Below, piece by piece: positions 1-44,484 of a DNA stretch of 44,484 bases. The stretch lies in the IMG/VR virus record IMGVR_UViG_3300032893_000102, positions 1-44,484 of that record, one strand, 5' to 3'. Numbering within the stretch: the first letter of the stretch is position 1; each line of letters starts with the position of its first letter. Made by a program: the position numbers and the translations under genes. Source of the stretch: a virus. Under the pieces are notes generated by a model, which saw only the letters and a list, made by a program, of their open reading frames with translations, was not told the origin of the DNA and searched no databases.

Positions 1-136
1 CACTATCTAAAGCCTCAATCTGAAGCCTGGCTATATGGTCAGCAAGGCCAACAACATCAGCGATATGAAAAGGGTCAACAAGGATCGTCGAAGCAGTAGA
101 CTTTTTATTCTTGTGATATCCAGCCACCCCAAGCAT
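1..136 (-). CDS. 5' end of unknown 113-aa protein (partial, cut by window edge)
   Basis: This is the first 45 codons of the gene seen whole at 44083-44424; the frame runs off the left edge and continues there once the terminal repeats are merged. In this copy the start codon is ATG (136-134), placed directly after the TAG stop (139-137) of the upstream gene. In the right-hand copy the same codon reads GTG. The second mismatch (128) is silent. Abutting stop and start suggest translational coupling. Function is unknown. Confidence 0.75.
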   Translation of the reverse strand, partial: MLGVAGYHKNKKSTASTILVDPFHIADVVGLADHIARLQIEALDS

Positions 137-196
137 CTATGCTCCCTTTTGATCCAATTGTCTAATTTCTATCCCAAGCTTGTTTGAAAGTGATTG
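1..196. repeat. Terminal direct repeat, left copy
   Basis: These 196 bases recur at the right end of the window with 194 identities. The differences are C128 against A44416 and T136 against C44424. The repeat closes the sequence into a circle of about 44,288 bp. It may be an assembly overlap of a circular or circularly permuted genome, or a true short terminal repeat. It lies inside coding sequence, covering the start of one gene and the end of its upstream neighbour. Confidence 0.97.
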
Positions 197-30141: not shown

Positions 30142-31707
30142 TTATCCAAAGTCTACGTCAGATCCGACTCCCTTAGCCTTAAGGACATTTCTAAATTTCC
30201 TGGCTGCGGTCCAATCCTTCCTCGCGACACGGCAGTGAAAGGTAACGGCAAGGGCGTCGGCTTGGTCTGGCGACTTAATGCCCCGCTTCTTCATCTTTTC
30301 TTTGGATTCAAGCTTTTGTTTTTGCTCTTTTCCCATGTACTCATACTCTGGGGCGACGAGCTGCTCGACGAGATTACGATCTTCTTCTCTTTGATTTCCA
30401 AGCATCGCGCCGTTTAACCACTCCCTCATCCTCGCCCAAAGTTCTGTTCGGTGATCAAAATACTGGGGATCGTCGGGGGAAGAGCCAAACTCCACCTCGA
30501 AAACCTTATACCCCATTTCCCTGAGACGATCGATGATTCCGGTCCCGGCGCCAGAGTCGATAAAGACCGCGTCTGGGTTAAACTGCTCAATCAGCTCGGC
30601 GCACTTGTTTGCGACTTGCATATTGTCAGCCCCCTTCATGATCACAGTCGGAAAGCTACGGGCGTCCCGTCCTTGTCTAAAGCGGATAACGGTATCGTCA
30701 TCTCCAAACCGCGCTGGATCGACACCCATACAAAGCGGAGCGTAATCGTCCGTTCGTTCAAGTTCACGTAAGCAGGCGTCAGCCACAGCTGCTCGGCTAA
30801 TGAACTGGCGGTCACCTGTGGCCGGGAATTCTCCTTTAACCTCGACCCTGGCTTCACGCGAATCCTCCCCGTATTTGGTAATGATCTCATCATAAACAGC
30901 CCGGTCCACACCATCAACGAACCGCGAGTCAATCTTTCTGGTTTTCCAGAAGGTGCAGTGGGGGTGGGTGTGAAAACAATCATAAAACGGCCCCGAGTTA
31001 GACCGTGGGTTTGAGAAACAAAACCAAAAGCGATTGACGGATCTCTCGGTAAAAAACCCCTCCGTTACCGTCCAAATCGGACCGGGAATACCAGAGGCCT
31101 CATCAAAGATGACCATCATTCCGGCTGGGTTATGGGCTCCGGCAAACGCGTCAGGGTTATCTTCATTCCAAAGCTCTCCCCTAGCGTAGTAATACTGATC
31201 GTCAATCTTTAGCTGTTCTTTTAGGGATTTTGCAAACCACGGGGCAGGCATTAAGCCCTTTTGAATGCGGTCAAACCAGTAGGAGTTAATCGCGAGCGTT
31301 AGCCACTTTCCGATTTCTCCAAAGGTTTTATTTGTAAGTTGAGAATCTGTATTGGCCGATAAGATGACCGTACTTCCAAGCTGAGTTGAAAGCTGCCAGA
31401 GGGTAAGCCATGCGACAAGAGTAGATTTACCAGGGCCTCGTCCTGAGCTAATCGCGCACTTATAAGTTTTAGGATCTTGTCCAGCCGCAAGTCTTCTCTT
31501 GTTTTCCTTGATGAAGTCATAAACCTTAAGCAGTTCTTCTTTCTGCCACTGTCTCGGCCCGCTAATCCCCTCTAGTGGGGTCCTTGCCTCCCCCCACGGG
31601 AAGGCCATCATCACCCAAGCGTAAGGGTTGTCCTTCACGTGCGGAGCCCACATCATCTCCATTAGCTTTTGCGTCTGCTCGACCGGAGGAAGGCTCGCCT
31701 TGCTCAT
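30142..31707 (-). CDS. terL: Terminase large subunit (packaging ATPase-nuclease)
   Basis: Pumps and cuts the DNA concatemer during head filling. About 521 residues. The ATPase half has an adenine-binding QWQKEELL near 54-61, Walker A GRGPGKST near 89-96 and Walker B VIFDEAS near 199-205. The nuclease half has acidic residues in GVDPARFGDDD (about 329-338), FIDSGAGTG (383-391) and PDQADALAVT (480-489), the RNase-H-like triad. The start at 31707 overlaps the upstream frame 31562-31945 by 146 bases; a later start near residue 17 would shorten this. The small subunit candidate is distant (2366-2827). Confidence 0.92.
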   Translation of the reverse strand: MSKASLPPVEQTQKLMEMMWAPHVKDNPYAWVMMAFPWGEARTPLEGISGPRQWQKEELLKVYDFIKENKRRLAAGQDPKTYKCAISSGRGPGKSTLVAWLTLWQLSTQLGSTVILSANTDSQLTNKTFGEIGKWLTLAINSYWFDRIQKGLMPAPWFAKSLKEQLKIDDQYYYARGELWNEDNPDAFAGAHNPAGMMVIFDEASGIPGPIWTVTEGFFTERSVNRFWFCFSNPRSNSGPFYDCFHTHPHCTFWKTRKIDSRFVDGVDRAVYDEIITKYGEDSREARVEVKGEFPATGDRQFISRAAVADACLRELERTDDYAPLCMGVDPARFGDDDTVIRFRQGRDARSFPTVIMKGADNMQVANKCAELIEQFNPDAVFIDSGAGTGIIDRLREMGYKVFEVEFGSSPDDPQYFDHRTELWARMREWLNGAMLGNQREEDRNLVEQLVAPEYEYMGKEQKQKLESKEKMKKRGIKSPDQADALAVTFHCRVARKDWTAARKFRNVLKAKGVGSDVDFG

Positions 31708-31945
31708 CAATCACCCCATCTGCATAAGCATAGATCTCCCACCTATGATCGTAGACCCACCTTAAGGCATCCCGCCAGTCATGCATTTCTTTAAATGCCA
31801 TTAGGTGCGCCATCTGAAACAAAAGCGGTGGAGTTTCTTCAAGCTGCATAATGACCTGATCTGGAACGTCGAGAATTCTCAGCGCTGCCCTACAGCGCAG
31901 GATCTGAGCACCTAGCCTGGGGTCTAGGCTACTCTTCAAAGACAT
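31562..31945 (-). CDS. Unknown protein overlapping the start of the terminase
   Basis: The frame from ATG 31945 encodes 127 residues. The first 85 look like a real helical protein (SLDPRLGAQILRCRAALRIL, then FKEMHDWRDALRWVYDHR). The last 42 lie over the start of the large terminase in another frame and are glycine/aspartate-rich, as in shadow translation. In the place upstream of terL one expects a small terminase subunit, but no DNA-binding motif is evident. It also overlaps the preceding gene by 17 bases. The real product may be the helical part plus a poorly conserved tail. Confidence 0.55.
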   Translation of the reverse strand: MSLKSSLDPRLGAQILRCRAALRILDVPDQVIMQLEETPPLLFQMAHLMAFKEMHDWRDALRWVYDHRWEIYAYADGVIDEQGEPSSGRADAKANGDDVGSAREGQPLRLGDDGLPVGGGKDPTRGD

Positions 31946-32201
31946 GAAGCATAGTCTTTCCAACCTCGGCCTTCGCCTCAAACGAGCCAATATATCTGGT
32001 CACGTTAAATCTTTGGGGGACCTCTTTGCCATCGGCAAAAATCTTTAACGTTCTGCGCTGTAGGGCGTGTCCATCTTCAATCAGAATCCACATGCAGGGC
32101 TTTTCGTCCCAGGTTCCAAACATTAAAATTTCGCTATTAAATGGGATCGATAGCGTTTGCGCTGGCTCTAGCTCAAGATCAAATCGTTTAACGGACTTCA
32201 T
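31929..32201 (-). CDS. DUF7352-like small protein
   Basis: The 90-residue protein contains IPFNSEILMFGTWDEKPCMW then LIEDG and RYIGSFE...LHVFEE, which agrees with the small DUF7352 family found in phages, of unknown function. It is probably a compact beta protein. The start overlaps the radical SAM stop by four bases (ATGA), so translation is coupled, though a functional link is not shown. Confidence 0.65.
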   Translation of the reverse strand: MKSVKRFDLELEPAQTLSIPFNSEILMFGTWDEKPCMWILIEDGHALQRRTLKIFADGKEVPQRFNVTRYIGSFEAKAEVGKTMLHVFEE

Positions 32202-33325
32202 ATAAAACTCAAATGCTCCGGAGGGTTGCCAACGGCGGGTGGCAATGAGCCACCCTTTTTGAAGTGGTCTAGGGCTTCATTTACCTTGTGCTGGAGGCAA
32301 AGCGAGCCGCACATGCTTTGCGCGTTGAAGTTCGGCGATGCAAGGTAGTTGACGACCTCCCAGTACCTCTCGCCTCGTACCATTTCTTTAAAGCTCTCTC
32401 TAACGATGTTGCCAATGTGGAATTTCTTATACTGTTCGTTGAAAAGCATGCCACAAGGCGCAACGAGTCCTGACCCGGAGAGCTGAATGAGAAAAGGCGG
32501 GCCGTAGCATCTTTGATAGGAACGCTTACCCTTATCTCCGATCTTTGACCATTTGGCACTAACTTGATACGTGCTCGTTGAGTAACCTTCCGCTTCCTTA
32601 AGCTTGCCGTAGAGCGTTTCGTAGCCATCGTAGTTAACTCCTAACTTTCCATCTTCATCATCTGAACAATGTTTAATTACCAGATAATCAGCCCCAAGCT
32701 CAAGCCCAAGCTTGGTGAGGGGGATGATTTGATCCTCAAACTCAGGCATCAGCACCATTTGAAGGCCTATCGTGCATGATAGCCCTCTTTCTTTTTTGAC
32801 TCTAACCATGGTACGGATATTTTCGCATACCCGCTCGAAGAATCCGTCTTTGACCCCCATGATCTCCTTGTATCGCTCCTTTTCTCCGGCAGTAATGTTG
32901 ACACGGAAATAAGTAAGACACGGTAGAATATCTGAAATTTTTCTTTCATCGAGAAGGTAAGAATTGGACCCAACAGCCATAGCAATGCCTTTAGAGTGGC
33001 CATACTGAATAGTATCAACGAAACAGGGATTAAGAGTGGACTCGCCATCAGAAACGAGAGAAACTCCCTTAACGCCAATCTCAGCCGCGTCATCTAAAAA
33101 TCTCCTCATCACGTCCTTGGTTATTGGAAACCCCTGGTTCTCTTGCAAAATCGCGTAGCAATATCGGCACGCATAGTTACAGGTTCGATTTAGGGCCATA
33201 TCAACCGTGATCGGAGCGATCTTTTCGCCCCTCTCCCAGGCGTCGACCCGATCCTTCCACCAGCCTATTTTCGTCCCATCGAGGATCAGTTTTTCATGAA
33301 GAGGTTCGGTGGCTGGATTTAGCAT
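32198..33325 (-). CDS. Radical SAM protein with SPASM-like C-terminus
   Basis: The signature CNYACRYCY (C49, C53, C56 from the start used) binds the 4Fe-4S cluster that cleaves S-adenosylmethionine to a radical. The following fold has GVKGVSLVSDGESTLNP, the usual glycine-rich SAM contact. The C-terminal third has cysteines in YQRCYGPPF, VAPCGM and MCGSLCLQH, which resembles a SPASM auxiliary-cluster domain, used on peptide or sugar substrates. ATG 33325 is chosen; a TTG at 33427 would add 34 plausible residues but overlaps the upstream frame by 134 bases. It lies after the aminotransferase and before a DUF7352 gene. Substrate unknown, probably linked to the sugar cassette. Confidence 0.8.
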   Translation of the reverse strand: MLNPATEPLHEKLILDGTKIGWWKDRVDAWERGEKIAPITVDMALNRTCNYACRYCYAILQENQGFPITKDVMRRFLDDAAEIGVKGVSLVSDGESTLNPCFVDTIQYGHSKGIAMAVGSNSYLLDERKISDILPCLTYFRVNITAGEKERYKEIMGVKDGFFERVCENIRTMVRVKKERGLSCTIGLQMVLMPEFEDQIIPLTKLGLELGADYLVIKHCSDDEDGKLGVNYDGYETLYGKLKEAEGYSTSTYQVSAKWSKIGDKGKRSYQRCYGPPFLIQLSGSGLVAPCGMLFNEQYKKFHIGNIVRESFKEMVRGERYWEVVNYLASPNFNAQSMCGSLCLQHKVNEALDHFKKGGSLPPAVGNPPEHLSFI

Positions 33326-33578
33326 GAAGCGTATTCCTTTGAATTCTTCGGTTCTTATCTTCCTTTGATTCGAGCCTAAGATCAATGGGCCTTTTGGTGA
33401 AAAGCTGAAGATTTCTTTCAAGCCCAATCATGCTTCTGCCAAAGTCAGGATATGATGGGTTTTGCTCGTAGGATAGCACCCATCTAAACCCATCAACTTT
33501 AACCACCAGGACGTCGTCTTGTAGACCCATTTGCACACAGGCCGACGTAAGCATCGTTTGCGCCTCAAACTGGGTCAT
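33294..33578 (-). CDS. Unknown 94-aa protein between aminotransferase and radical SAM
   Basis: Starting MTQFEAQTMLTSACVQMG at 33578, it has a strand-rich centre (VLVVKVDGFRWVLSYEQNPS) and a basic helical end (ESKEDKNRRIQRN). It overlaps the aminotransferase stop by 14 bases and the radical SAM start by 32. I recognise no family. It may be an accessory of the radical SAM enzyme, by position only. Confidence 0.6.
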   Translation of the reverse strand: MTQFEAQTMLTSACVQMGLQDDVLVVKVDGFRWVLSYEQNPSYPDFGRSMIGLERNLQLFTKRPIDLRLESKEDKNRRIQRNTLHAKSSHRTSS

Positions 33579-34692
33579 ACATAAATTCCTTAACCTTATC
33601 GATCGCGTAATCCTGCTCTTCCCTCGATAGATGCTCATCGACTGGCAAAGAAATGACTCTTGCCGCCTGACGGTAGGCCACCGGGAAGTCGTCTTGCGCG
33701 AGCCCTGAATATTCTAACACGCCCTGAAGCGGGATTGGATAATGAACCTTCGCCTCAATGCCATTGTCTTGGAGCCATTCTAAAAGCCTATTTCTAATGG
33801 TATAATCAACCTCAAACATGTAGAGGTGAAAGCATTGTTTGACGTGCTCTCTCCTTGGGGCAAGAGATATGCCCCTTACGTCCTTGAGGTTTTGATCATA
33901 GTAGCGTGCATTTTCACGCCGCCGACCTGTAGTCTCCTTCGTTTCAGAGATCAAAAAATTCCCCACAATCGCCTGAAGCGAATCAAGCCGAGAGTTGCAC
34001 CCAAAACCAAATATTGGGTGAATCTCGTCCCGGTTTTTAAGACCGTGGTTGCGATAAAGCCTAAGCCTGCGGTTTAAATCCGCATCGTTGGTCGCAATCA
34101 TCCCTCCGTCACCCCAGACGTTCAGGTTCTTAAGGGGATGAAGCGAAAAGGCGCCAGCCGCGCCAAACGTTCCACAGCACTGGCCCTTAAATTCGGCAAG
34201 CACACCCTGGCAGGCATCCTCAACCACCGGAAGGCCATACTTATTTGCCACATACATCACCTGCTCCATCTCACAGGGCTCGCCGGTAAAATGCACGGGA
34301 ACTATGGCTTTCGTTTTCTTGGTTATGGCTCGCTCAATAAGATTCGCATCCAGAGTGTACCAAGGAGACATGTCCACAAAACGTGGTACAGCAAAAAGCT
34401 CAGCAATAGCACCAGCGCTGGCCACGAATGTGTTTGCGGCAGTGATGACCTCATCACCTGGGCCAACTCCACAAGCACGAAGAGCCAAACGAATAGCGTC
34501 AGTGCCGTTAGCAACACCAATAGCATGCTTGGCCCCAATAAGACTTGCAAACTTCTGCTCAAACGCCTCAACCTGAGGCCCAAGGGTAAAGTCCCCAACC
34601 TCCAGAAGTTTTTTAAAGCCTTCGTAAATAGGATGCCCTGGTTCCATGCAGCCTGCAAATTTTTGTGGTAAATAACTGTATCTTACCTTCAA
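33565..34692 (-). CDS. DegT/DnrJ/EryC1/StrS sugar aminotransferase
   Basis: A PLP-dependent enzyme that puts an amino group on a keto-sugar nucleotide. The 375 residues have the full family pattern: GVANGTDAIRLALRACGV (59-76), D159 in VVEDACQG holding the PLP ring nitrogen, and the catalytic lysine K188 in FSLHPLKNLNVWGDGG. The length is typical. It overlaps the preceding epimerase by four bases and acts after it in a likely operon. Such enzymes serve amino-sugar synthesis for LPS, capsules or glycoproteins. The exact sugar cannot be read from sequence. Confidence 0.9.
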   Translation of the reverse strand: MKVRYSYLPQKFAGCMEPGHPIYEGFKKLLEVGDFTLGPQVEAFEQKFASLIGAKHAIGVANGTDAIRLALRACGVGPGDEVITAANTFVASAGAIAELFAVPRFVDMSPWYTLDANLIERAITKKTKAIVPVHFTGEPCEMEQVMYVANKYGLPVVEDACQGVLAEFKGQCCGTFGAAGAFSLHPLKNLNVWGDGGMIATNDADLNRRLRLYRNHGLKNRDEIHPIFGFGCNSRLDSLQAIVGNFLISETKETTGRRRENARYYDQNLKDVRGISLAPRREHVKQCFHLYMFEVDYTIRNRLLEWLQDNGIEAKVHYPIPLQGVLEYSGLAQDDFPVAYRQAARVISLPVDEHLSREEQDYAIDKVKEFMYDPV

Positions 34693-35645
34693 AGGCCCAG
34701 CTCCTTCATGCGTTTGATGTTATAGTAAATTGAATTGTTTATCGGATCTTTAAACAAATCTTTTCTAAAAGCGCCAAGGATGTCATCGATCGCCTCAGTG
34801 ATGCCAAACGTCGGCTTAAAAATGCTAGAGATCTTGTTTGAGTTTACGTGGTATGATCTTCGGTCCACAACCGGCCTATCTTCAATCTGGCAAGGGATGA
34901 CCTCGCGGATTTGCTCGGCGATATGAAATAGGCTCTTGTTTTCAAAGCCGACGTTAAAGACCTGGCGGTCCACATCTTTTTCATTGGCATTAAGAATCGC
35001 AATGTAGGCCTCGCACATATCATCGATATGGATGTTTGGCCTTAGTTGCTCTCGGCCAAAAAGGGTGATCCTTTTATTCACAATCGCCTGAATCGTTAAA
35101 ACGTTGACGACCAGATCAAACCTTTGTCTTGGGGAATATCCGCAAACCGTCGCTGGTCTTAAGATCGTCCACGCCCCTCCGGTTCCATAAGATTGGAGCC
35201 AAGATTCGCAGGCTAGCTTATACTTTGAATAATCGGTGATTGGACTCTTTGGTGAGCCTTCGATAACGTCTGGGCGATCTGAGATCCCATAAACGCTAGA
35301 GCTAGAGGCGTAAATGAACCTCTTGACGTTACACTCGTTTACGACCTTGATCAGATCCTTAAAGCAAGTATAATTTATTTCTTTCCCAAGCCCAGGGTTC
35401 ATATCAAAGCTTGGATCGTTGGACACGCAGGCAAGATGAATAACCGCGTCCTGGCCAGAAAATGCCGCTCTCAAATCATCGATGCTTCTAATGTCGCCCT
35501 GGATTTTTGTGATCTTCTTGTTGTTTAACAGATGATCGCCAAACCAAAATGTATCTAAAACAGTGACGTCGTGACCGTTCAGCAAGAGCTTGTGGCTTAA
35601 AACGGTTCCGACATATCCGGCTCCGCCAGTGATTGCTATCTTCAT
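34689..35645 (-). CDS. NAD-dependent sugar epimerase/dehydratase (SDR), first
   Basis: An extended short-chain dehydrogenase acting on nucleotide sugars. Rossmann motif TGGAGYVG (residues 6-13) binds NAD(P), YASSSSVYG contains the serine of the active site, and Y139-x3-K143 (YSKYK) is the catalytic pair. The 318-residue length is usual. The substrate pocket segment RPATVCGYSPRQRFD resembles enzymes that act on heptose or deoxyhexose nucleotides. It overlaps both neighbours by four bases. Possible reactions are 4-epimerisation, 4,6-dehydration or reduction. Confidence 0.88.
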   Translation of the reverse strand: MKIAITGGAGYVGTVLSHKLLLNGHDVTVLDTFWFGDHLLNNKKITKIQGDIRSIDDLRAAFSGQDAVIHLACVSNDPSFDMNPGLGKEINYTCFKDLIKVVNECNVKRFIYASSSSVYGISDRPDVIEGSPKSPITDYSKYKLACESWLQSYGTGGAWTILRPATVCGYSPRQRFDLVVNVLTIQAIVNKRITLFGREQLRPNIHIDDMCEAYIAILNANEKDVDRQVFNVGFENKSLFHIAEQIREVIPCQIEDRPVVDRRSYHVNSNKISSIFKPTFGITEAIDDILGAFRKDLFKDPINNSIYYNIKRMKELGL

Positions 35646-36625
35646 GAGAGGTATTTAAACCAACTTTCTGTTGCCTTTTCGATTTTTTCTTTTGTCCAAA
35701 GCGGGGCGTTTTTATACTTTGGGATTTCCCCCCGCATTATCTCAACGCCCTCTTCAAAGCTCACCCTAGGCTTCCATCCGAGCTGATCCACAATCAGCGT
35801 GATGTCGGCATGCGTGATCCTCGGCTCTCCCGGCCGATCGGGAATGTGAATAAAATCTTTAGCCCCAAGCAATAGCGCAAGCTCGTTTACTGATCTTGGA
35901 TTTCCAGATCCAACGTTATAGCTACCCTCGCATCCCCGTGCCGCTAAAACAAAGGCCTCAACAACATCTGAGATGTAAACGAAGTCTCTTAGCTGCTTTC
36001 CGTCGCCTACAATTGTTAAGGGCAGGCCATTTGCAAGCTGAGATAAGAACACGCCAAACACCGCCCCATAGGCACCAGAGGTTCTATGCCTTGGGCCGTA
36101 GGCGTTAAAAATTCTCAGCGACGTCGTTGGAAGGTTATAAACATAGCTCCAGTGATTGACATAGTAATCGCCGATAAGCTTCGTTAGAGCATAGGGATGA
36201 AGCGGCCTTGCTTCACATCGCTCGCTCGTTGGATACTCGCTAGGAATACCGTACATGCTCGATGAGGCGGCGTAGATGAAGCGCTTTATCTTAAGCTTTC
36301 TCGCTAGCTCTAAAACCCTTATCGTTCCAGTCACATTGGTCTTGTGGTAATCTAGCGGCCTCTCGATTGACGGGATGAGATCAGCCTTCGCTGCCAGATG
36401 AAATATCCACTCCGTGCCATTTAAAATAGGGCCATGATCCATTAGCTCACCGTTGATATTGCCAAGGATCATGTGAAATCTTGGGCTTTTTGTCGCGACG
36501 CTTAGATTATTCACCTTGCCGTTTGAAAGATCATCGATTCCGACAACGTCATGCCCATCTTCAATGAGCCGATCGCAAAGATGGCTTCCGATAAAACCAG
36601 CCGCTCCGGTGACCAGACATTTCAT
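35642..36625 (-). CDS. NAD-dependent sugar epimerase (SDR), second
   Basis: Like its downstream neighbour it is an extended SDR: TGAAGFIG (residues 6-13), AASSSMYG, and YALTK with Y145 and K149. FNAYGPRHRTSGAYGAVF and VGDGKQLRDFVYISDV fit UDP-glucose/GlcNAc 4-epimerase relatives. It is 327 residues. As the first gene read leftward from the 54-bp divergent spacer, it is probably the leader of the aminotransferase branch. The two SDRs are not close copies of each other, so they likely catalyse separate steps. Confidence 0.88.
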   Translation of the reverse strand: MKCLVTGAAGFIGSHLCDRLIEDGHDVVGIDDLSNGKVNNLSVATKSPRFHMILGNINGELMDHGPILNGTEWIFHLAAKADLIPSIERPLDYHKTNVTGTIRVLELARKLKIKRFIYAASSSMYGIPSEYPTSERCEARPLHPYALTKLIGDYYVNHWSYVYNLPTTSLRIFNAYGPRHRTSGAYGAVFGVFLSQLANGLPLTIVGDGKQLRDFVYISDVVEAFVLAARGCEGSYNVGSGNPRSVNELALLLGAKDFIHIPDRPGEPRITHADITLIVDQLGWKPRVSFEEGVEIMRGEIPKYKNAPLWTKEKIEKATESWFKYLS

Positions 36626-36679
36626 GAAACCCCCAAATAAGGTTTTGACTTAAGGCCAAGCCATGGTCAAATTGTTTTT
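36626..36679. promoter_or_regulatory. Divergent promoter spacer of the sugar cassette
   Basis: Only 54 bases separate the outward genes. On the + strand TTGACT is followed after 17 bases by CAAATT, a fair -35 and weak -10, putting transcription start close to the ATG at 36680, so that message could be nearly leaderless; no ribosome site is seen before that ATG. Both branches must be switched from here unless read-through from 41 kb supplies one of them. Confidence 0.3.
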
Positions 36680-37294
36680 ATGCAAGACACCAGGGATCGC
36701 AACAAATATTTTACCGCCGAAGACATCAACACCTATCTGAGCGATTATTCTAAGGCCATTCGCCTTGGTTTATCTAAAATAAACCGAAAGAACATGGTTG
36801 CGGCGCAGAACGTCCTTAGGCTAACGGCCCTAAGTGGCGGAAGGATCTTTGTTGGCGGAAACGGTGGGTCCGCCGCCATCTCAGATCACCTCAAGTGTGA
36901 CTTTAGCAAAGGAACAGATGACGGACACGGCGGAAATCTCGTTGTTCATTGTCTATCAAACTCAATGGCTCTTTTTTCTGCGATAGGAAACGACTTGGGC
37001 TATGAAAGAACTCTCGATTATCAGTTAAGCTTGTCAAAGGTTAATGTTAAAGACGCTGTCATCCTTATTAGTAGCTCTGGAAATAGCCCAAATATCACCA
37101 ACTGTTGTTCTTATGCCAAGCGCTTTGGCGCAACAGTCATTGGTCTCACCGGCTTTGACGGAGGATGCCTTAAAGAAAAGTGCGACATCTCTCTTCACGT
37201 TCCGGTTGATAACTACGGCGTCGTTGAAGATTGTCACCAGGCGCTGATGCACGTTTTTGCCCAATACTACTGGTTGAGTTCAAATGAGAGATAA
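36680..37294 (+). CDS. SIS-domain phosphosugar isomerase, GmhA-like
   Basis: A 204-residue single SIS domain: FVGGNGGSAAISDHL near residues 55-69 binds the phosphosugar, and ISSSGNSPN near 127-135 is the second phosphate loop. VEDCHQALMH close to the C-terminus matches the family's conserved Q/H region. The segment after DHL is KCDFSKGT and lacks the AEEL glutamate of enterobacterial GmhA, which marks a distinct subgroup rather than classical sedoheptulose-7-phosphate isomerase. It is the first rightward gene of the sugar cassette. A heptose or other phosphosugar isomerase step is likely. Confidence 0.78.
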   Translation: MQDTRDRNKYFTAEDINTYLSDYSKAIRLGLSKINRKNMVAAQNVLRLTALSGGRIFVGGNGGSAAISDHLKCDFSKGTDDGHGGNLVVHCLSNSMALFSAIGNDLGYERTLDYQLSLSKVNVKDAVILISSSGNSPNITNCCSYAKRFGATVIGLTGFDGGCLKEKCDISLHVPVDNYGVVEDCHQALMHVFAQYYWLSSNER

Positions 37295-38225
37295 AGCAGA
37301 CGACGTGGATCTTTATTTAAAGATCCTTAGAATAAGGATGATCGAAGAAGCTATAGCCAAACGATACAAAGAAGGAAAGATGCGCTGCCCGGTTCATCTC
37401 AGCATCGGCCAGGAGGCCGCTGCCGTTGGGGTTTGCGCGGCCCTTTTGCCTAACGATAAGATGGTGTCAACCCACAGGTCGCACGCTCACTACCTTGCTA
37501 AGGGTGGATCGCTCAAAGGATTGATCGGGGAGCTTTATGGAAAGTCTACGGGATGTAGCCGAGGCAATGGTGGTTCTATGCATCTCATTGACCTTAGTGT
37601 TAATTTTTGGGGTTCTACTAGCATTGTTGGTGGAACTATCCCTGTCGGCGTTGGTTTGGCTTTTGCAGATTATCTTCGAGGAGATGTGTCGACGACGGTG
37701 ATCTGTATTGGCGACGCGGCGATTGAAGAAGGGGTGTTTCATGAGGCGGCAAACTTTGCCTCTCTTCATGACCTCAATGTCATCTTTGTCCTAGAAAATA
37801 ACCTTTATTCCTGCTACACCAACATTAAAAACCGCCAGCCCGATCGCCCGATCTCTGATGTGGCAAGGGCACACAAGCTTTCCTTCCTTCGGACAAAGGA
37901 AAATGATGCTAAAGACATCATGAACTCGGTTTATTCCGTTTGTAGGCCTGCTTTGATTGAGATCCCAACCTATAGATATCTTCAGCACTGTGGGCCGGAT
38001 AAGGATGACGAGCTTGGGTATCGCTCCTATAAGGAAATTTTAAGGTGGAGGCATAAAGATCCGCTCAATGTTAATTACTGCATAGGGCATCCAACCGATG
38101 GAGAACTCGGAAAAATCATCTTGGAAATCGATCAGGCTTTCGCAAGTGCTGAAGAGGCGCCGTTTCCAGATGAGACAGAAATGGGAAAGTATACATATGC
38201 TGAGCTTCAAACAAGCGCTACTTGA
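37284..38225 (+). CDS. Thiamine-dependent dehydrogenase E1 alpha-like subunit
   Basis: The protein belongs to the E1 alpha/transketolase-N family that uses thiamine diphosphate to split 2-oxo acids. The TPP/magnesium motif is GDA at 143-145 with NN at 172-173, exactly 26 residues later, and HLSIGQEAAAVGV and HRSHAHYLAKGG are family features. It is 313 residues, shorter than mitochondrial E1 alpha. No E2 or E3 subunit is encoded, so it is unlikely to be a complete pyruvate dehydrogenase. In a sugar cluster it more likely forms or transfers a carbon unit to a sugar. It overlaps the previous gene by 11 bases and the beta gene by 29. Confidence 0.85.
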   Translation: MRDKADDVDLYLKILRIRMIEEAIAKRYKEGKMRCPVHLSIGQEAAAVGVCAALLPNDKMVSTHRSHAHYLAKGGSLKGLIGELYGKSTGCSRGNGGSMHLIDLSVNFWGSTSIVGGTIPVGVGLAFADYLRGDVSTTVICIGDAAIEEGVFHEAANFASLHDLNVIFVLENNLYSCYTNIKNRQPDRPISDVARAHKLSFLRTKENDAKDIMNSVYSVCRPALIEIPTYRYLQHCGPDKDDELGYRSYKEILRWRHKDPLNVNYCIGHPTDGELGKIILEIDQAFASAEEAPFPDETEMGKYTYAELQTSAT

Positions 38226-39195
38226 GGCCCAGGAGGCGTGCCTTAAAGATCCGAGGTGCTTTCTCATTGGCGAGGGCGTCCCTGATCCGAAGGCATGCTT
38301 TGGCACCACAGCTGGGCTCGATAAGAAATTCCCACGTCAGGTCTTTGACATGCCTGTATCTGAGAATGGGATCACAGGCGTGTGTATAGGTGCGGCCATA
38401 AATGGCATGAAGCCAATCCTCGTTCACCAGAGAATCGACTTTTCGCTCTACAGTATGGATCAAATCGTCAATAACGCGGCGAAATGGTTTTCCATGTTTG
38501 GAGGCCAAAAAAGCGTCCCAATCGTCATTCGGATGATCGTTGGGAGGGGTTGGGGTCAGGGTAATCAACATTCCCAAAACCTTACCTCAATGTTTGCCCA
38601 CGTTCCAGGTCTTAAAGTCTTTTGTCCGTCAAGCGCCAGGGACGCAAAAGATTTGTTCATCAAAGCCTATAACGACCCAAACCCAGTTATTTTTATCGAG
38701 CATCGCTGGCTTTATGACACGACCTCAGAAAGGGGAGACCTTTCTTCGGGAATAGAAGAGGGGTCTGATATCACCATCGTCGCCTCTGGACACGCCTATA
38801 GAGAGGCCTATCTTGCAAGAGAGAGGCTTAAGTCGAACGGGATCTCGGCTGAGCTTATTGACCTTAGGATCATAAGCCCACTAGATATGACGATGATTTA
38901 TGATTCAGTTTCAAAAACCAAGTCTTTACTTGTGGTTGATGACTGTTGGCAAATGTGCGGAGTGGCGTCAGAAATCATCGCAAGCGTTGCCTGCCATAGA
39001 GAAGGATATAAGTTTTCTAGGCTCACCTATCCAAATTGTCCATCTGCAAGCTCTCCGGCCTTAACAAAGAATTACTATCCAGAGTGCTCAGATATTTGCG
39101 CCTATGCTGAAGACCTGCTCATGCGGCCAATGAATTATTGGCCAAGAAGGGAGAAACACGATGTTCCTAATCCAGAGTTTAGGGGTCCGTTTTGA
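38197..39195 (+). CDS. Thiamine-dependent dehydrogenase E1 beta-like subunit
   Basis: Partner of the alpha gene. The 332-residue protein has the transketolase pyrimidine-binding domain first (MLSFKQALLEAQEACLKDPR, then FPRQVFDMPVSENGITGVCI, where the glutamate after S activates TPP), and a transketolase C-domain after residue 200 (ITIVASGHAYREAY, AELIDLRIISPLD). ATG at 38197 is chosen because similarity begins there; an earlier in-frame ATG lies over the alpha gene. Alpha and beta probably form an alpha2-beta2 enzyme. The 30 C-terminal residues are extra. Confidence 0.85.
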   Translation: MLSFKQALLEAQEACLKDPRCFLIGEGVPDPKACFGTTAGLDKKFPRQVFDMPVSENGITGVCIGAAINGMKPILVHQRIDFSLYSMDQIVNNAAKWFSMFGGQKSVPIVIRMIVGRGWGQGNQHSQNLTSMFAHVPGLKVFCPSSARDAKDLFIKAYNDPNPVIFIEHRWLYDTTSERGDLSSGIEEGSDITIVASGHAYREAYLARERLKSNGISAELIDLRIISPLDMTMIYDSVSKTKSLLVVDDCWQMCGVASEIIASVACHREGYKFSRLTYPNCPSASSPALTKNYYPECSDICAYAEDLLMRPMNYWPRREKHDVPNPEFRGPF

Positions 39196-40529
39196 AAACC
39201 GTTCTTTGCCACGGCTGTTTTGACGTCCTTCACTATGGCCACCTCAAACATCTCCAAGCTGCCAGACGGTACGGTGATCGACTTGTTGTCTCGCTCACGG
39301 CAGACGCATTTGTTAATAAAGGCCCTTCTCGCCCATACTTCTCAGCTGAAAAGAGAGCTGAGATGCTTAAAGCACTTGGAATCGTTGATCAGGTCACGAT
39401 CACTCACCACCAGACAGCTATTCCGGCAATTAGAGAAGTTAAACCTGCTTATTACGTTAAAGGAGCAGACTATCGAGACCCTACTCAAGATGTTACGGGA
39501 GAAATAGCCAATGAAAAAGCCGAGGTCGAACGCTGGGGCGGAAAGCTCGTTTTCACCGATGAGGAAACCCACTCCTCATCAAGGCTCATTAATAGCTTCC
39601 TTGCGCCGTGGTCAGATGAGCAAAAAGCAGCAATTGAAACTATACGCTCTCTTGGTGGATTTGAAGCTATTAAGAGGGCAGTTGATTCTCTCTCTGGACT
39701 TTCTATCCTGGTTGCTGGAGAGACTATCCTTGATATCTACCGATTCGTTAGGCCAGAAGGGATATCATCCAAGTCCCCGAGCCTATCCGCCAGATTCATC
39801 AGAGAAGAGCAATACCACGGAGGATCATGGGCCATCGCCAACCACCTCAGAGATTTTGCAAGTGTTAGCCTCGTTGCTCCTGTCAAAACCTGTAAAAAAA
39901 TCAGGTACATCTCTGAAACGCAAAGGATTTTTGAAGTAACAGAGATCGATGAGGATGTTAAAGATCGGGATTTTTTGATAGATAAGATTTACGGGTTTTC
40001 GGGCGACTGTATTGTCGTTGCCGACTTTGGCCATGGAATGTTTTTAGGAGGAGAGCTAGATGGTAATCTCAGACCCTTTGTCGGACTCAACGTCCAAACC
40101 AATTCATCAAACCTTGGTTTCAATCCCTACCACAAGCACGCTGTCTATTCTTATCTCTGTCTCGACACCAGGGAATCAAGGATGGCCACACACGATCGAT
40201 ATTCAGACCCACTTACGATTGCAAGAAAAATTGCGTCAAACGCTCCAGGACATTTTGGGTTTACCGTTGGATCGGGTGGAGCTTACATTCTTTCCAACGG
40301 CGGGAACGAGCTACACTGCCCCGCCTTTAGCGACGTCGTTATTGACGCCACTGGGGCCGGAGACGCGTTCTTCGCCATCACCACGGCGCTCCTCTGTAGA
40401 GGAGCGCGTTCAGAAATCACTCTCTTCATTGGAAACGTTTTTGCTGGGCTTAAAACAAAGATCATCGGAAATAAGAGCGCGGTTTCTAAAGCAGCGCTCT
40501 TAAAAGCCTGTGAATCGATTCTTAAGTAG
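39192..40529 (+). CDS. Bifunctional HldE-like enzyme in reversed order: nucleotidyltransferase-kinase
   Basis: Residues 1-130 form a cytidylyltransferase-type domain with VLCHGCFDVLHYGHLKHL carrying the HxGH motif (H14-H17), which joins a sugar-1-phosphate to a nucleotide. Residues from about 165 form a PfkB/ribokinase domain with the family's C-terminal signature DATGAGDAFF and catalytic D391. E. coli HldE has the kinase first and the adenylyltransferase second; here the order is reversed. Together with the GmhA-like gene it suggests phosphorylation and activation of a heptose-type sugar. The kinase part is shortened in its lid region (about 195-290), so activity there is less certain. It overlaps the beta gene by four bases. 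Confidence 0.8.
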   Translation: MKTVLCHGCFDVLHYGHLKHLQAARRYGDRLVVSLTADAFVNKGPSRPYFSAEKRAEMLKALGIVDQVTITHHQTAIPAIREVKPAYYVKGADYRDPTQDVTGEIANEKAEVERWGGKLVFTDEETHSSSRLINSFLAPWSDEQKAAIETIRSLGGFEAIKRAVDSLSGLSILVAGETILDIYRFVRPEGISSKSPSLSARFIREEQYHGGSWAIANHLRDFASVSLVAPVKTCKKIRYISETQRIFEVTEIDEDVKDRDFLIDKIYGFSGDCIVVADFGHGMFLGGELDGNLRPFVGLNVQTNSSNLGFNPYHKHAVYSYLCLDTRESRMATHDRYSDPLTIARKIASNAPGHFGFTVGSGGAYILSNGGNELHCPAFSDVVIDATGAGDAFFAITTALLCRGARSEITLFIGNVFAGLKTKIIGNKSAVSKAALLKACESILK

Positions 40530-41012: not shown

Positions 41013-41210
41013 TCATTTGGAATTTTTCAGCCGCTCAATCTTGGGGTTGTCGGATGATGTCATATCAGCCTCTTTCATTGTCTTAATCCTTCTCATTTCT
41101 GATTTAGATCTTGGAGCGTCCGAGTGATCTTCCATAAAGTCGATGACAGGGAGCTTTTTACAAAGCTCCCTGCGCTGTTCTGGGGTCAGATCGTCGTCAT
41201 CGTCACTCAT
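41013..41210 (-). CDS. Acidic 65-aa protein following the E1 gene
   Basis: The protein begins MSDDDDDLTPEQRREL, is strongly acidic at the N-terminus and basic near the C-terminus, and is probably disordered or helical. ATG at 41210 overlaps the E1-like stop by four bases, so it is coupled to the ubiquitin-like cassette. A perfect 9-bp hairpin (GGGAGCTTT/AAAGCTCCC, 41149-41170) lies inside the gene. It may be a substrate, adaptor or regulator of the cassette; that is inference from coupling. Confidence 0.6.
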   Translation of the reverse strand: MSDDDDDLTPEQRRELCKKLPVIDFMEDHSDAPRSKSEMRRIKTMKEADMTSSDNPKIERLKNSK

Positions 41211-41878
41211 TCCCTAACCCAATTCTGAAAACTATTCAGTCCGATGTTCCAGTGCGTCACCCTCGCATAAGGAGCCTTTACTGCCAAATCCTTGACGTGC
41301 TTTGCAACATAACCCCCAATCATCGACGCGGTGTACATCGTGGCTTTTGCGGTGCACCTCTCGGGCTCGGCATTTTCATCAAGATAAAGGGTCTTTTCGT
41401 AAGCCTCAATATCTTTTGTCAGGTTTGGGTCAATCACGTAAGAAACCGCGTATTCCGCAGCCATCCTCGGATCAATGTACCACCTCACCTTAAGGTTATC
41501 CTTGCAAAGCTCCCATACCGCCTTTCTCACCTTCATCGAATCCACAGCGGTGATAACGATCTGGCCCAGGTCTTCCGTCTGGTCAATAAACTTGTGCATA
41601 TAGTAATCGATTTCAACCTTGGTGAAATCCTTAACCAAATCATAAAGGGCTTCGACTTTAGACTTACCGATATCTGAAAATCTATAAAACTGGCAGTTCA
41701 TATTCTCAACCGAGACCTCGTCAAAGTCAAAAACCTTGATCTCGCTAAATCCCATCTTGGCGAGATTAAGAACCGTCATCGACCCGATCGCCCCAGCCCC
41801 AATAACGGTGATGGGTAAATTTAAAACCTCAACCGGGATAATGTCTAATTGCCTCGTCAAATGCTCAGTACCCTGCAT
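41207..41878 (-). CDS. ThiF/E1-like ubiquitin-activating enzyme
   Basis: E1-like enzymes adenylate the C-terminal glycine of a ubiquitin-like protein and usually pass it to a cysteine. In 223 residues this protein has GAGAIG (27-32) for ATP, then D51-F-D-E-V, N59 and N61 with Q63, and the DIGKSK loop (69-74), the standard ThiF adenylation set. The usual R of NRQ is C62. A candidate thioester cysteine is C175 in PERCTAK, in the crossover position. The ATG at 41878 has GGAGG nine bases upstream, and overlaps the JAB stop by 14 bases. Together with the Ubl, E2 and JAB genes it completes a conjugation set; it resembles the ThiF protein of PRTRC cassettes. Confidence 0.85.
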   Translation of the reverse strand: MQGTEHLTRQLDIIPVEVLNLPITVIGAGAIGSMTVLNLAKMGFSEIKVFDFDEVSVENMNCQFYRFSDIGKSKVEALYDLVKDFTKVEIDYYMHKFIDQTEDLGQIVITAVDSMKVRKAVWELCKDNLKVRWYIDPRMAAEYAVSYVIDPNLTKDIEAYEKTLYLDENAEPERCTAKATMYTASMIGGYVAKHVKDLAVKAPYARVTHWNIGLNSFQNWVRE

Positions 41879-42845
41879 AAAAATCATCCTCCGCACGGCG
41901 ATCGTGCAAATAAGCCAAATAGGCGTCAGAAAACTTTGAATCAATCTTTCTCACATAAGAAATCTCATCGGGAGTCATTTCGGCGATCATAGAATAAAGC
42001 ATATCCTTTCCCATAACCTCTGAATCCTTGCACGGATTGTAAACCGACATTCCATCAATATTGGCATAGCCAAACTTGTTCCACTCAATCTCGGTGTCTT
42101 TGGCTACCCCCCGAGGAAGCTCAACCAAAGAATCCTTGATCTTCCATACACCGTTTTTAAACTCGTACTTGTCTGGGAACTGCCGCTTCCAGCTATTTGG
42201 ATCAGAGTCATCTGCCGTCCATTTGCTTGAATAGGTTTTCTTCTTCACCTTATCCTCAAATTCCTTATCAAGCTTTTCCTTTAAGGCCAGATCCACCCGC
42301 CTCACAATCTTCATTGGCATCTTATCGATGAAGATGTCATGCGGCCGCCCCATCACGTCAACGCTAGTTAAAAAGGCGGTCGTATATTCTTTCTTTTGGT
42401 TTAATACCGTCGCAACGATCCAGCCCTTTTGCCCAAGCTGACGAATGAGGTTTAGATCGGTCGTCGACCACGAAGCCTGAAATCCAGGGTGAGAGTGCCA
42501 GTGCCACTTTAAAGCGTTAGGCTCATTTCTCATCTCATACATCGCCTTAGCAAGGCCTGCGTCATCGATCTCAGCCGATCCCCCGCTCACCGTCTGCTTT
42601 AAAAGAATCGCGTCCCTCACCCGAAACCTTCTTGACGTTTCATCAAAGTCCAAAGACCCAAAGCCTGACACCTCATCTGGCGCCGCCTTATCAATCCAGT
42701 ACATCACCTTTTCTAAAACCTTTTCTGGGATCTCAAGCGTTAACCCCTCTCCAGCATCTTGAACAGGAACGTGATCCTGATCGACCTTAGGGCCAACCGA
42801 CTCATAGCCCACATAGTATTTCTTTTTCTTGTTCTTCTTAGCCAT
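41865..42845 (-). CDS. JAB/JAMM-domain metalloprotease, deubiquitinase-like
   Basis: The JAB domain spans about residues 35-170. Zinc site is complete: H117-S-H119, seven residues, S127, two residues, D130 (HxHx7SxxD), with E58 in DEVSGFGSLD as the catalytic acid. Such enzymes cleave isopeptide bonds after a ubiquitin-like glycine. The N-terminus is lysine-rich. A C-terminal region of about 150 residues, after residue 175, is unrecognised and could bind partner or substrate. It overlaps the E2-like gene by eight bases and the E1-like start by 14. The 326-residue length is near that of PRTRC protein A-like proteins. Since the Ubl ends already in glycine, deconjugation is more likely than maturation. 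Confidence 0.88.
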   Translation of the reverse strand: MAKKNKKKKYYVGYESVGPKVDQDHVPVQDAGEGLTLEIPEKVLEKVMYWIDKAAPDEVSGFGSLDFDETSRRFRVRDAILLKQTVSGGSAEIDDAGLAKAMYEMRNEPNALKWHWHSHPGFQASWSTTDLNLIRQLGQKGWIVATVLNQKKEYTTAFLTSVDVMGRPHDIFIDKMPMKIVRRVDLALKEKLDKEFEDKVKKKTYSSKWTADDSDPNSWKRQFPDKYEFKNGVWKIKDSLVELPRGVAKDTEIEWNKFGYANIDGMSVYNPCKDSEVMGKDMLYSMIAEMTPDEISYVRKIDSKFSDAYLAYLHDRRAEDDFYAGY

Positions 42846-43788
42846 TTTTTACTCCCTTGGTTTTTGCCTTATAAGCTTGTTCAAATTGGTAAAGAGGAAT
42901 ATATCCTTTTCGCTCCTCGAAGTTTGCCATCACGTCGTAAAGATCCATCATACAAGCGTAAAAATCTCTCTTCGCGTAATTTTTGTGATAAGAGTTTCCA
43001 ATCTCACCCATGCAGATGTAGTTTTTAACCCCGATGTGGGGGTGAACGTATTGTCCGATCGTGATGTTATCCTCTCCAGCGCCAACACTAATCGTCCATC
43101 CACCCTTCTTATCTGGTATGACGTCGACCTTAAAGCGCCCAAGTGGAACAATCAGATTTGTTGCCTGAGCCTCGCTAAAAAAGCTTTTGTTGATAAACTT
43201 CGATAAAAACGTGACAACGCCGTCACGTTGAACCTTATGCATCGTAAACTTTCCCGTCGCCAAAACCTTTTTGATCTCATTGGTCCACTTTAAAGAACTA
43301 TCCTCTGCGCTTGGCTGGTTTTGTTGGGCCAAAATTTCTTGATTAATCTCATTATATCGCTCTTCAAGTTTACGTACGGTATTCCTAGCGTTCCTTAGGT
43401 CGGTTGCAACAAGCATGCGTTCGGTCGCTAATTTAAACGTCATGGCTGTGGGGTCATAAACAAACTCGGCTACAGCGCTTTTGATCTCGGCGGCCTTGAC
43501 ATACCTTTCCTTGGGAAGCTTCTTGGTTTTCCGCTTTAAGCCAAAAAAGATCTTGTTTATTTGCGCTCTGTTTAAAATAATATGACCGTCTTTAACAAAG
43601 CTCGATAACTCAAAATCGCCCACGTCAACGCCAGTCCTTTGGCCCAAATCCTCAATGTACTTTAAAATCGCCTCCTTCTTACCAATCTCCTCGTCGTTCG
43701 ATCCGTTAAAGATTTCATAGTGATAACCACGAGCATCACGCATCGTCTTGACATCGTGATGCTTTAGCTCTAGCGTTTTAGGTGCCAC
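42838..43788 (-). CDS. E2-like (UBC-fold) conjugating protein, PRTRC-B type
   Basis: The C-terminal third has the sequence of an E2 active site: YVHPHIGVKNYICMGEIG, with H-P-H in the place of HPN and C259 in ICMG in the place of ICLD. Strands before it (FKVDVIPDKKGGWTISVGAG) fit the UBC sheet, and a helical end follows (AKRDFYACMMDLYDVM). The first 170 residues are a separate, partly coiled-coil region (LEERYNEINQEILAQQN), as in the larger PRTRC-B (Prok-E2_D) proteins. GTG start with GGAG eight bases upstream. It follows the Ubl gene after a strong hairpin. E2 identity is a motif inference; confirming needs a structure prediction. Confidence 0.7.
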   Translation of the reverse strand: MAPKTLELKHHDVKTMRDARGYHYEIFNGSNDEEIGKKEAILKYIEDLGQRTGVDVGDFELSSFVKDGHIILNRAQINKIFFGLKRKTKKLPKERYVKAAEIKSAVAEFVYDPTAMTFKLATERMLVATDLRNARNTVRKLEERYNEINQEILAQQNQPSAEDSSLKWTNEIKKVLATGKFTMHKVQRDGVVTFLSKFINKSFFSEAQATNLIVPLGRFKVDVIPDKKGGWTISVGAGEDNITIGQYVHPHIGVKNYICMGEIGNSYHKNYAKRDFYACMMDLYDVMANFEERKGYIPLYQFEQAYKAKTKGVKNG

Positions 43789-43819
43789 TTTGTATTCTCC
43801 TTATCAGTTTGGGTGAAAG

Positions 43820-43851
43820 GGGGCGCTTCGGATCACTCCCCGAAGCGCCCC
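43820..43851 (-). terminator. Perfect hairpin between Ubl and E2-like genes
   Basis: GGGGCGCTTCGG (43820-43831) pairs over all 12 bases with CCGAAGCGCCCC (43840-43851) across an eight-base loop, in the 73-bp gap. On the minus strand it is followed by CTTTCACC, a poor T tract; on the + strand by AAATTTTT. As a partial terminator or 3' stabiliser it would leave the Ubl message in excess over the enzyme messages. Confidence 0.6.
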
Positions 43852-43861
43852 AAATTTTTAC

Positions 43862-44053
43862 CTAGCCAGCCTTCACAGGACGGGCAAACGAGACAAAGTC
43901 GTTCGTCTCAAGCTTTTGGTCAAAGTCAGCGGGCTCTCCATTCACAGCCGCCGTATAACCCTGACACTCCATCTTGTTGGCTAAGTCACCAACCGTCTTG
44001 GCATCAATTTGCTTGTTCTTACCACCCGCGACCTGACAGATAACCTTTGCCAT
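43862..44053 (-). CDS. Ubiquitin-like protein (beta-grasp), PRTRC-C/Prok_Ub-like
   Basis: Modifier of the cassette: 63 residues, with the ThiS/MoaD-ubiquitin pattern: VICQVAGG strand, TVGDLANKM helix, YTAAVNGEPAD strand and turn, and LETNDFVSFARPVKAG ending in a single terminal glycine, like PRTRC protein C (which tends to end V-x-x-K-G). There is no tail after the glycine, so no processing is needed. The start ATG follows GGAG eight bases upstream. It precedes the E2-like gene. MoaD/ThiS sulfur-carrier function is the alternative, but the E2- and JAB-like neighbours argue for protein tagging. Confidence 0.8.
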   Translation of the reverse strand: MAKVICQVAGGKNKQIDAKTVGDLANKMECQGYTAAVNGEPADFDQKLETNDFVSFARPVKAG

Positions 44054-44082: not shown

Positions 44083-44424
44083 TTATTTGGACCTTAACTT
44101 TTCAATCTCAAGCCAAAGCTCATGACTCTCTGCTAAGGCGCAGTAATCCTTAGACACAACCCGAGCCATTCCCAAACAAGTGTTAAACTGCAATCGACAC
44201 TCGTTAAACTTTAGCCGATTTGGTATAGCGCCAGATCTCTGGCAGTAACGAAAAATCTCAAACCCCAACGTCTCATCATCAGGGTAACCACTATCTAAAG
44301 CCTCAATCTGAAGCCTGGCTATATGGTCAGCAAGGCCAACAACATCAGCGATATGAAAAGGGTCAACAAGGATCGTCGAAGCAGTAGACTTTTTATTCTT
44401 GTGATATCCAGCCACACCAAGCAC
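44083..44424 (-). CDS. Unknown 113-aa protein upstream of the Ubl gene
   Basis: I do not recognise it. It is mostly helical with three cysteines, and has DVVGLADHIARLQIEALDSG near residues 28-47 and LEIEKLRSK at the end. Start is GTG at 44424 in this copy and ATG in the left repeat, so the gene varies at its start codon. It is separated from the Ubl gene by 29 bases that carry GGAG. As a member of the same leftward run it may serve the conjugation system, perhaps as a target or specificity factor. Confidence 0.65.
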   Translation of the reverse strand: MLGVAGYHKNKKSTASTILVDPFHIADVVGLADHIARLQIEALDSGYPDDETLGFEIFRYCQRSGAIPNRLKFNECRLQFNTCLGMARVVSKDYCALAESHELWLEIEKLRSK

Positions 44425-44484
44425 CTATGCTCCCTTTTGATCCAATTGTCTAATTTCTATCCCAAGCTTGTTTGAAAGTGATTG
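44289..44484. repeat. Terminal direct repeat, right copy
   Basis: Identical to bases 1-196 apart from positions 44416 and 44424. See the left copy. The second difference changes the start codon of the 113-residue protein from ATG to GTG, while the first is silent. Confidence 0.97.

Follow-up and report, generated by a model that had tools for sequence, protein, structure and literature searches.

A probable ubiquitin-like conjugation cassette in a phage genome and its relatives in other phages

The IMG/VR virus record IMGVR_UViG_3300032893_000102 (44,484 nt, analysed over its full length and called the window below) carries a row of four overlapping or closely packed genes on the minus strand at 41207-44053. 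In order, they encode a ubiquitin-like protein (Ubl), an E2-like protein, a JAB/JAMM isopeptidase, and an E1-type adenylating enzyme. A previous sequence-only reading had described four adjacent leftward genes of these kinds, and all four open reading frames (ORFs) are in place. We consider it probable that they make up a self-contained, reversible Ubl conjugation system encoded by the phage. The features expected of such a cascade are each represented: an E1 with its adenylation site and catalytic Cys, an E2 of predicted ubiquitin-conjugating (UBC) fold with its Cys, a beta-grasp Ubl with a C-terminal Gly, and a JAB with the JAMM motif. The reading had also proposed a search of viruses for the same genes in a row. 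With profile hidden Markov models, the order Ubl-E2-JAB-E1 was recovered in twenty-four of twenty-nine viral loci and in nineteen of twenty-seven loci on cellular contigs, most of the others being truncated or reordered. The recurrence among the viral loci is far beyond chance.

The profile check proposed for the four proteins bore out two of them. The E1 matched Pfam ThiF (8.8e-24, 84.4 bits against a curated cut-off of 28.1) and the JAB matched Prok-JAB (1.4e-8, 35.1 bits against a cut-off of 25 bits). The check failed for the E2, as discussed below, and for the Ubl on its own, whose ThiS-like match (0.0077) fell below the Pfam cut-off. The E1 is a single adenylation domain with the GAGAIG motif and C175 noted at the outset. 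In an alignment of thirty family members (A10), the nucleotide-site Gly, D113, R118, D136, R138, and C175-T176 are invariant, and in profile searches the E1 fell nearest among UBA1, UBA5, and ThiF. The JAB carries the complete motif E58 ... H117-S-H119-x7-S127-x2-D130. Its HxHx7SxxD portion, described earlier as perfect, is kept in 57/57 JABs of the family, and E58 is invariant in the twenty-eight members aligned. The nearest matches to the JAB profile were RPN11-type JAMM proteins.

The E2 can be followed by its active site and its predicted fold. In the window the active-site motif is HPHIGVKNYIC-M-G, with H249 and C259; across the family it is HPH(V)xxxGxxC-x-G, with the His ten residues before the Cys (His-x9-Cys). 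Eukaryotic E2s have the same ten-residue spacing from His to Cys. The HP and C-x-G positions are invariant in five viruses whose E2s are about 20 per cent identical, and the active-site His is kept in all but two of fifty-four E2s (the exceptions are L067 and L076). Full-length E2 genes of the family encode about 215-812 amino acids (aa). A whole-protein AlphaFold2 model, with five sequences as input and pLDDT 72, did not lead to any informative structural match and was replaced by a model of the C-terminal domain built from a thirty-six-sequence alignment (pLDDT 90.8, pTM 0.83). When this model was compared with the PDB using Foldseek, the best match was the ubiquitin-conjugating enzyme UbcA1 (probability 1.00; the next match had 0.21). 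Against a viral structure library the top matches were unnamed (E 3.8e-4), and a Yasminevirus protein annotated as an E2 ubiquitin-conjugating enzyme was among the top viral matches (probability 0.98). The predicted structure thus supports, with moderate strength, a diverged UBC fold for this domain, in keeping with the likeness first suspected.

A profile of twenty-eight Ubls reached archaeal SAMP2 (1.8e-8). The tails of the relatives read KGG, KGGR, KGGC, EGGSK, KGA, or KAG. Most have GG or KG followed by 0-20 residues at the end, and a few stop at Gly, as the window Ubl does.

Judging from this catalytic anatomy, we infer that the product is a conjugate to lysine. The conserved residues suggest that the E1 would adenylate the C-terminal Gly of the Ubl and then load the Ubl on Cys175. 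It would next be handed to Cys259 in the His-x9-Cys active site of the E2, which would join it to substrate lysines, with the variable N-terminal region of the E2 perhaps choosing the substrates. The JAB isopeptidase would take the Ubl off again, and probably also matures it in relatives with residues beyond the Gly. The Ubl and E1 might instead handle sulfur in the manner of ThiS/ThiF or SAMP2/UbaA: the E1 would thiocarboxylate the Ubl, which the JAB matures, and the Ubl would supply sulfur for modifying tRNAs or cofactors. Both proteins are similar in sequence to those of the SAMP2 and ThiS-ThiF systems: the Ubl comes nearest to SAMP2 and ThiS, and the E1 is of the single-domain ThiF type. 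Those systems have no E2, whereas nearly all loci of this family encode a UBC-type E2 with His-x9-Cys beside the JAB, and no sulfur-transfer role is known for such an E2. The protein families listed for neighbouring genes also include no rhodanese, ThiG, or tRNA thiolase. Because of the E2, we treat sulfur transfer as a minor and highly improbable rival to conjugation.

Searching viruses with the window JAB alone identified two relatives, both of which carry all four cassette genes, and alignment-based scans identified the twenty-nine loci, each on a different viral contig. Single-sequence scans of viruses with the E2 and with the E1 identified no relatives, and tblastn of the E2 and JAB in named phages gave no direct homologues. 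Identity to the window ranges from 64 per cent down to about 24 per cent for the E1 and is about 11-22 per cent for the E2. Shared ancestry of structural genes was rejected as the cause of the co-occurrence for the carriers compared. Podovirus head and tail genes are common to the window and only two of them (G004 and G005), with an identity of 25-30 per cent, and the E1s of these phages are 43-64 per cent identical to that of the window. Further E1 matches (L050-L060) were excluded from the family as other ThiF-like or CBASS-like proteins; on the E1 tree, those that were placed fall outside the family. At L061, the E1 is followed by another protein with an E2 domain (8609-9361), giving two E2s in one cassette.

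The cellular contigs with the cassette, from one genome scan, are mostly metagenome-assembled genomes (MAGs) of Myxococcales with several copies each. Uncultured Myxococcales MAGs (including L026-L049) have up to eight E1 matches, representing several cassettes, per genome. Some of these copies lie near genes that we read by eye as a CHC2-type primase, SprT-like protease, RecB-like nuclease, integrase, or VirD4-like protein, a setting resembling a mobile element. One contig binned as Lokiarchaeota (L023) also has the cassette. Its E1 groups with that of phage L073 (99/95), and the contig is likely mis-binned or viral.

A diverged form of the row is present in crAss-like phages of the Steigviridae (L109 and L118-L123) and in Flavobacterium phage Fpv1 (Fipvunavirus, L108), and there are cultured phages among these. 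Existing annotation names only a 'thiamine biosynthesis' protein and a metalloprotease domain. The former is homologous to the E1 over its full length (profile 1.6e-45), with a Cys aligned to the catalytic Cys in the sequences inspected, and the gene preceding it encodes a JAB (4e-16). Upstream of the JAB, all eight loci encode a protein with HSH...C-x-G (E2 profile 3.9e-4), and most also have a beta-grasp-like protein in which SGA or SGT precedes a long extension. The assignment of these two as E2 and Ubl is suggestive. With them, the Steigviridae gene order reads primase, Ubl, E2, JAB, E1, a hypothetical protein, and uracil-DNA glycosylase (UDG). The cassette order is that of the window and the E1 and JAB are homologous to its own, whereas the E2 and Ubl are very diverged. 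In Fpv1 (L108:2674-4966) the JAB is in two parts, separated by an ORF on the opposite strand (3190-3939), possibly an intron or homing element.

Host defence proteins and virion proteins had been proposed as targets in the sequence-only reading. We found no sequence evidence for either, and the neighbouring genes in a subset of relatives lean towards primase, helicase, and UDG. Among seventy-four flanking proteins, the commonest families were D5-like primase and SNF2/DEAD helicase, with four each. Since primase, helicase, or UDG genes adjoin the cassette in this subset, which includes the crAss-like phages, the balance tilts slightly towards proteins of replication or takeover and away from virion proteins. 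We tentatively put forward phage or host proteins at the stage of DNA replication or takeover as the most likely candidates. One flanking protein matched the ClpB/Cdc48-type AAA+ family; judged by its length, it is likely the large ORF that comes immediately after the E1 at L075 (8431-10950). This is a hint, in that virus only, of a link between the tag and unfolding or degradation.

Several observations weigh against a conjugation system with such targets. None of the 30 aligned members keeps the Arg of the E1 N-x-x-R-Q motif (window E1 position 62); C, N, S, or A stands in its place, so the geometry of adenylation may differ. The window E2 has no Pfam match, and Pfam searches with the E2s from a first set of five family members and a second set of six gave nothing relevant. 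The E2 profile reaches E2 L3 at an E value of only 0.36, and the structural match to UbcA1 (E 9.3e-3, TM 0.47/0.55) misses a strict threshold of 1e-3. Nor did the analysis identify a gene for an E3, a proteasome, or a substrate. Finally, the replication-gene neighbourhood is limited to a subset of the relatives, and no recognised replication gene adjoins the cassette in the window itself.

Among described systems, the anti-phage Bil operon has the same four kinds of gene, and its letters BilA-B-C-D (Ubl, E2, JAB deubiquitinase, and E1) follow the order seen in the window (PMC11354881). A phage might use such a set as a weapon, shutting out competitors that infect the same cell by tagging their structural proteins, and a variable E2 N-terminus would fit with targets that change. 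The parts are nevertheless not those of Bil. BilA has two Ubl domains, BilB has a CEHH motif in which the catalytic His follows the Cys, and BilD consists of an IAD, an AAD, and a Cys domain (PMC11354881), whereas the window has a single Ubl of 63 aa, an E2 with its conserved His upstream of the Cys, and an E1 of one adenylation domain in 223 aa. No conserved E/H/H follows the Cys in the alignment of family E2s (A12). We therefore rejected Bil membership on the single Ubl, the missing CEHH motif, and the missing IAD. In crAss-like phages, moreover, the cassette is kept in a block of replication genes across genera, unlike a typical accessory exclusion gene, and we think a role against competitors unlikely.

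In type II CBASS, E2 and E1 are fused in Cap2, whose target is a cGAS-like enzyme. The window has E1, E2, and JAB chemistry in common with Cap2/Cap3, with weak similarity in the E1. Membership was rejected here as well: the E1 and E2 are separate, and there is no cyclase among the ORFs adjoining the cassette. The bacterial ubiquitination-like system, Bub, is marked by the Bub gene set and CapW/CapHP/CapKS regulators (PMC13373217). Phages meet systems of these kinds, and the phage Ubl, JAB, or E1 might serve counter-defence by disturbing host Bil, Bub, or CBASS Cap2/Cap3, for example through removal of host tags or competition for the host E2. The Ubl and JAB are well conserved, and host conjugates are a possible substrate of the JAB. 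A pure inhibitor would need neither its own E1 nor a catalytic E2, yet the cassette retains the four active sites as a set, and no host system was identified; counter-defence seems to us quite unlikely.

The closest comparison is with PRTRC, the cassette of plasmids and megaplasmids that corresponds to operon type 6d of Iyer et al. (2006). The plasmid gene row is ParB-E-C-F-B-A-ThiF, of which the core, C (Ubl)-(F)-B (E2)-A (JAB)-ThiF (E1), has the same order as the window, and the C-x-G at the E2 active site is common to both. On the E1 tree, a 98/99 branch divides the phage, cellular, crAss-like and Flavobacterium-phage, and PRTRC sequences from other ThiF-like proteins. Profile comparison of the family with PRTRC gave 8e-19 for the E1 and weaker values for the E2 (7e-4) and JAB (3.5e-4, weak). 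The cassettes differ in other respects. The upstream active-site His of the window E2 (HPH) is absent from PRTRC_B (AP..N...G..C-x-G), and the Arg of N-x-x-R-Q that is replaced in the window family is kept in the PRTRC E1. The window E1 scored 44 bits against PRTRC_ThiF (TIGR03736), for which the cut-off is 144.75, and its Myxococcota relatives were also below. The Ubl profile did not match that of PRTRC_C in hhalign (E 0.37), a test of limited power for so small a domain. ParB, E, and F are linked to the cassette in PRTRC plasmids, whereas the ORFs adjacent to the window cassette have no such matches. We accordingly rejected PRTRC membership on the E2 motif, E1 score, Ubl, and linked genes. 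The original naming of PRTRC as a relative holds, given the shared core order and E1 branch, and the two sets are distinct.

PRTRC is monophyletic on the E1 tree and is placed weakly beside L076 and L072. The two E2s that lack the first active-site His, at L067 (4965-6932; NPF) and L076 (4528-6966; TPF), are PRTRC_B-like and may be intermediates towards PRTRC_B. Because the L076 E2 has lost this His, PRTRC could descend from the same stock. We hypothesize on this basis that PRTRC was derived from the phage family, with long branches as a risk to that placement.

The record that carries the cassette is, by its gene content, a phage genome, as first read: portal/head-tail adaptor, major head (capsid), tail, and large terminase proteins (the terminase is listed in Table 1) have clear PHROGs matches. 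It is probably complete and circularly closing, since a 196-bp direct repeat at both termini suggests that the ends join. With its two mismatches, this repeat would escape exact-match detection. In contig G001, homologues of ORFs 137-505 and 463-804 are found upstream of the Ubl, which is consistent with the window ends joining.

Ribosome-binding sites precede the overlapping cassette genes; the E2 and JAB genes overlap by 8 nt and the JAB and E1 genes by 14 nt. Given these overlaps, we read the cassette and the two ORFs that follow it as one operon. A protein similar in composition to the second of these also follows the E1 in L003 (7677-8105). The E1 gene likely does not begin at 41944. An ATG at 41878 is conserved in alignment with relatives and has GGAGG upstream, which is why we take the gene as 41207-41878, and the number C175 used from the start agrees with it.

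Table 1. Features of the window that bear on the cassette and on the ends of the genome.
Feature	Position	Strand	Description
Ubl	43862..44053	minus	63 aa; beta-grasp; ends FARPVKAG, C-terminal Gly already exposed
E2-like protein	42838..43788	minus	316 aa; UBC-like domain predicted at residues ~149-316; N-terminal region variable in the family
JAB/JAMM isopeptidase	41865..42845	minus	326 aa; E58, H117, H119, S127, D130
E1/ThiF-type adenylating enzyme	41207..41878	minus	223 aa; catalytic Cys175; ORF call ran to 41944
ORF, 65 aa	41013..41210	minus	4-nt overlap with E1 stop; no Pfam match
ORF, 164 aa	40522..41016	minus	Ala/Gln-rich, coiled-coil-like; 4-nt overlap with 65-aa ORF; Pfam matches weak, low-complexity only
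ORF, 113 aa	44083..44424	minus	just upstream of Ubl; crosses terminal repeat into ORFs 137-505 and 463-804
Direct terminal repeat, 196 bp	1..196, matching 44289-44484		2 mismatches
Large terminase	30142-31710		nearest recognised virion gene

The cassette had been placed beside virion genes, a description that did not survive: the terminase is ~9.5 kb away, with sugar and aminotransferase genes between. This distance bears on a role in virion maturation, in which the Ubl would be put on the head, tail, or fibre proteins of the phage itself and modulate assembly. Bil tags phage structural proteins, tail or collagen-like proteins lie near the cassette in some contigs, and the window record does have virion genes. 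The kinds of virion gene differ among carriers, however, and replication genes are the commonest neighbours; we regard virion maturation as very unlikely. The block between the terminase and the cassette (32198-40529) includes a radical SAM protein, an aminotransferase, nucleotide-sugar epimerases, a GmhA-like SIS isomerase, a dehydrogenase E1/transketolase pair, and an HldE-like (heptose-type) protein, and is perhaps a surface-sugar pathway.

We found no published description of a phage-encoded cassette in the literature searched, which excludes preprints and most subscription journals; within that scope, the suspicion that such sets are little described for phages was correct. The available text of Iyer et al. 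(2006) covers a phage tail Ubl and JAB (TAPI/TAPK) and bacterial operons 6a-6e and names no phage E1-E2-JAB-Ubl set (PMC1779556), and a Crassvirales isolation paper mentions neither ubiquitin nor ThiF. A broader proposal is that tailed phages are a main reservoir of a distinct, eukaryote-like Ubl system with a His-x9-Cys E2, that during infection it acts on replication or takeover proteins, that its carriers include crAss-like gut phages amenable to culture, and that it is the stock of plasmid PRTRC. Taken as a whole we hold this to be somewhat unlikely. So far, discussion of prokaryotic Ubl conjugation has treated it as a trait of hosts (against phages) or of plasmids, and a family spread across many phages suggests that viruses use it too. 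The family also bears on the origin of the E1-E2-Ubl-JAMM set, and its cultured crAss-like carriers would open the long-standing question of PRTRC/type 6d cassette function to tests in a cultivable phage.

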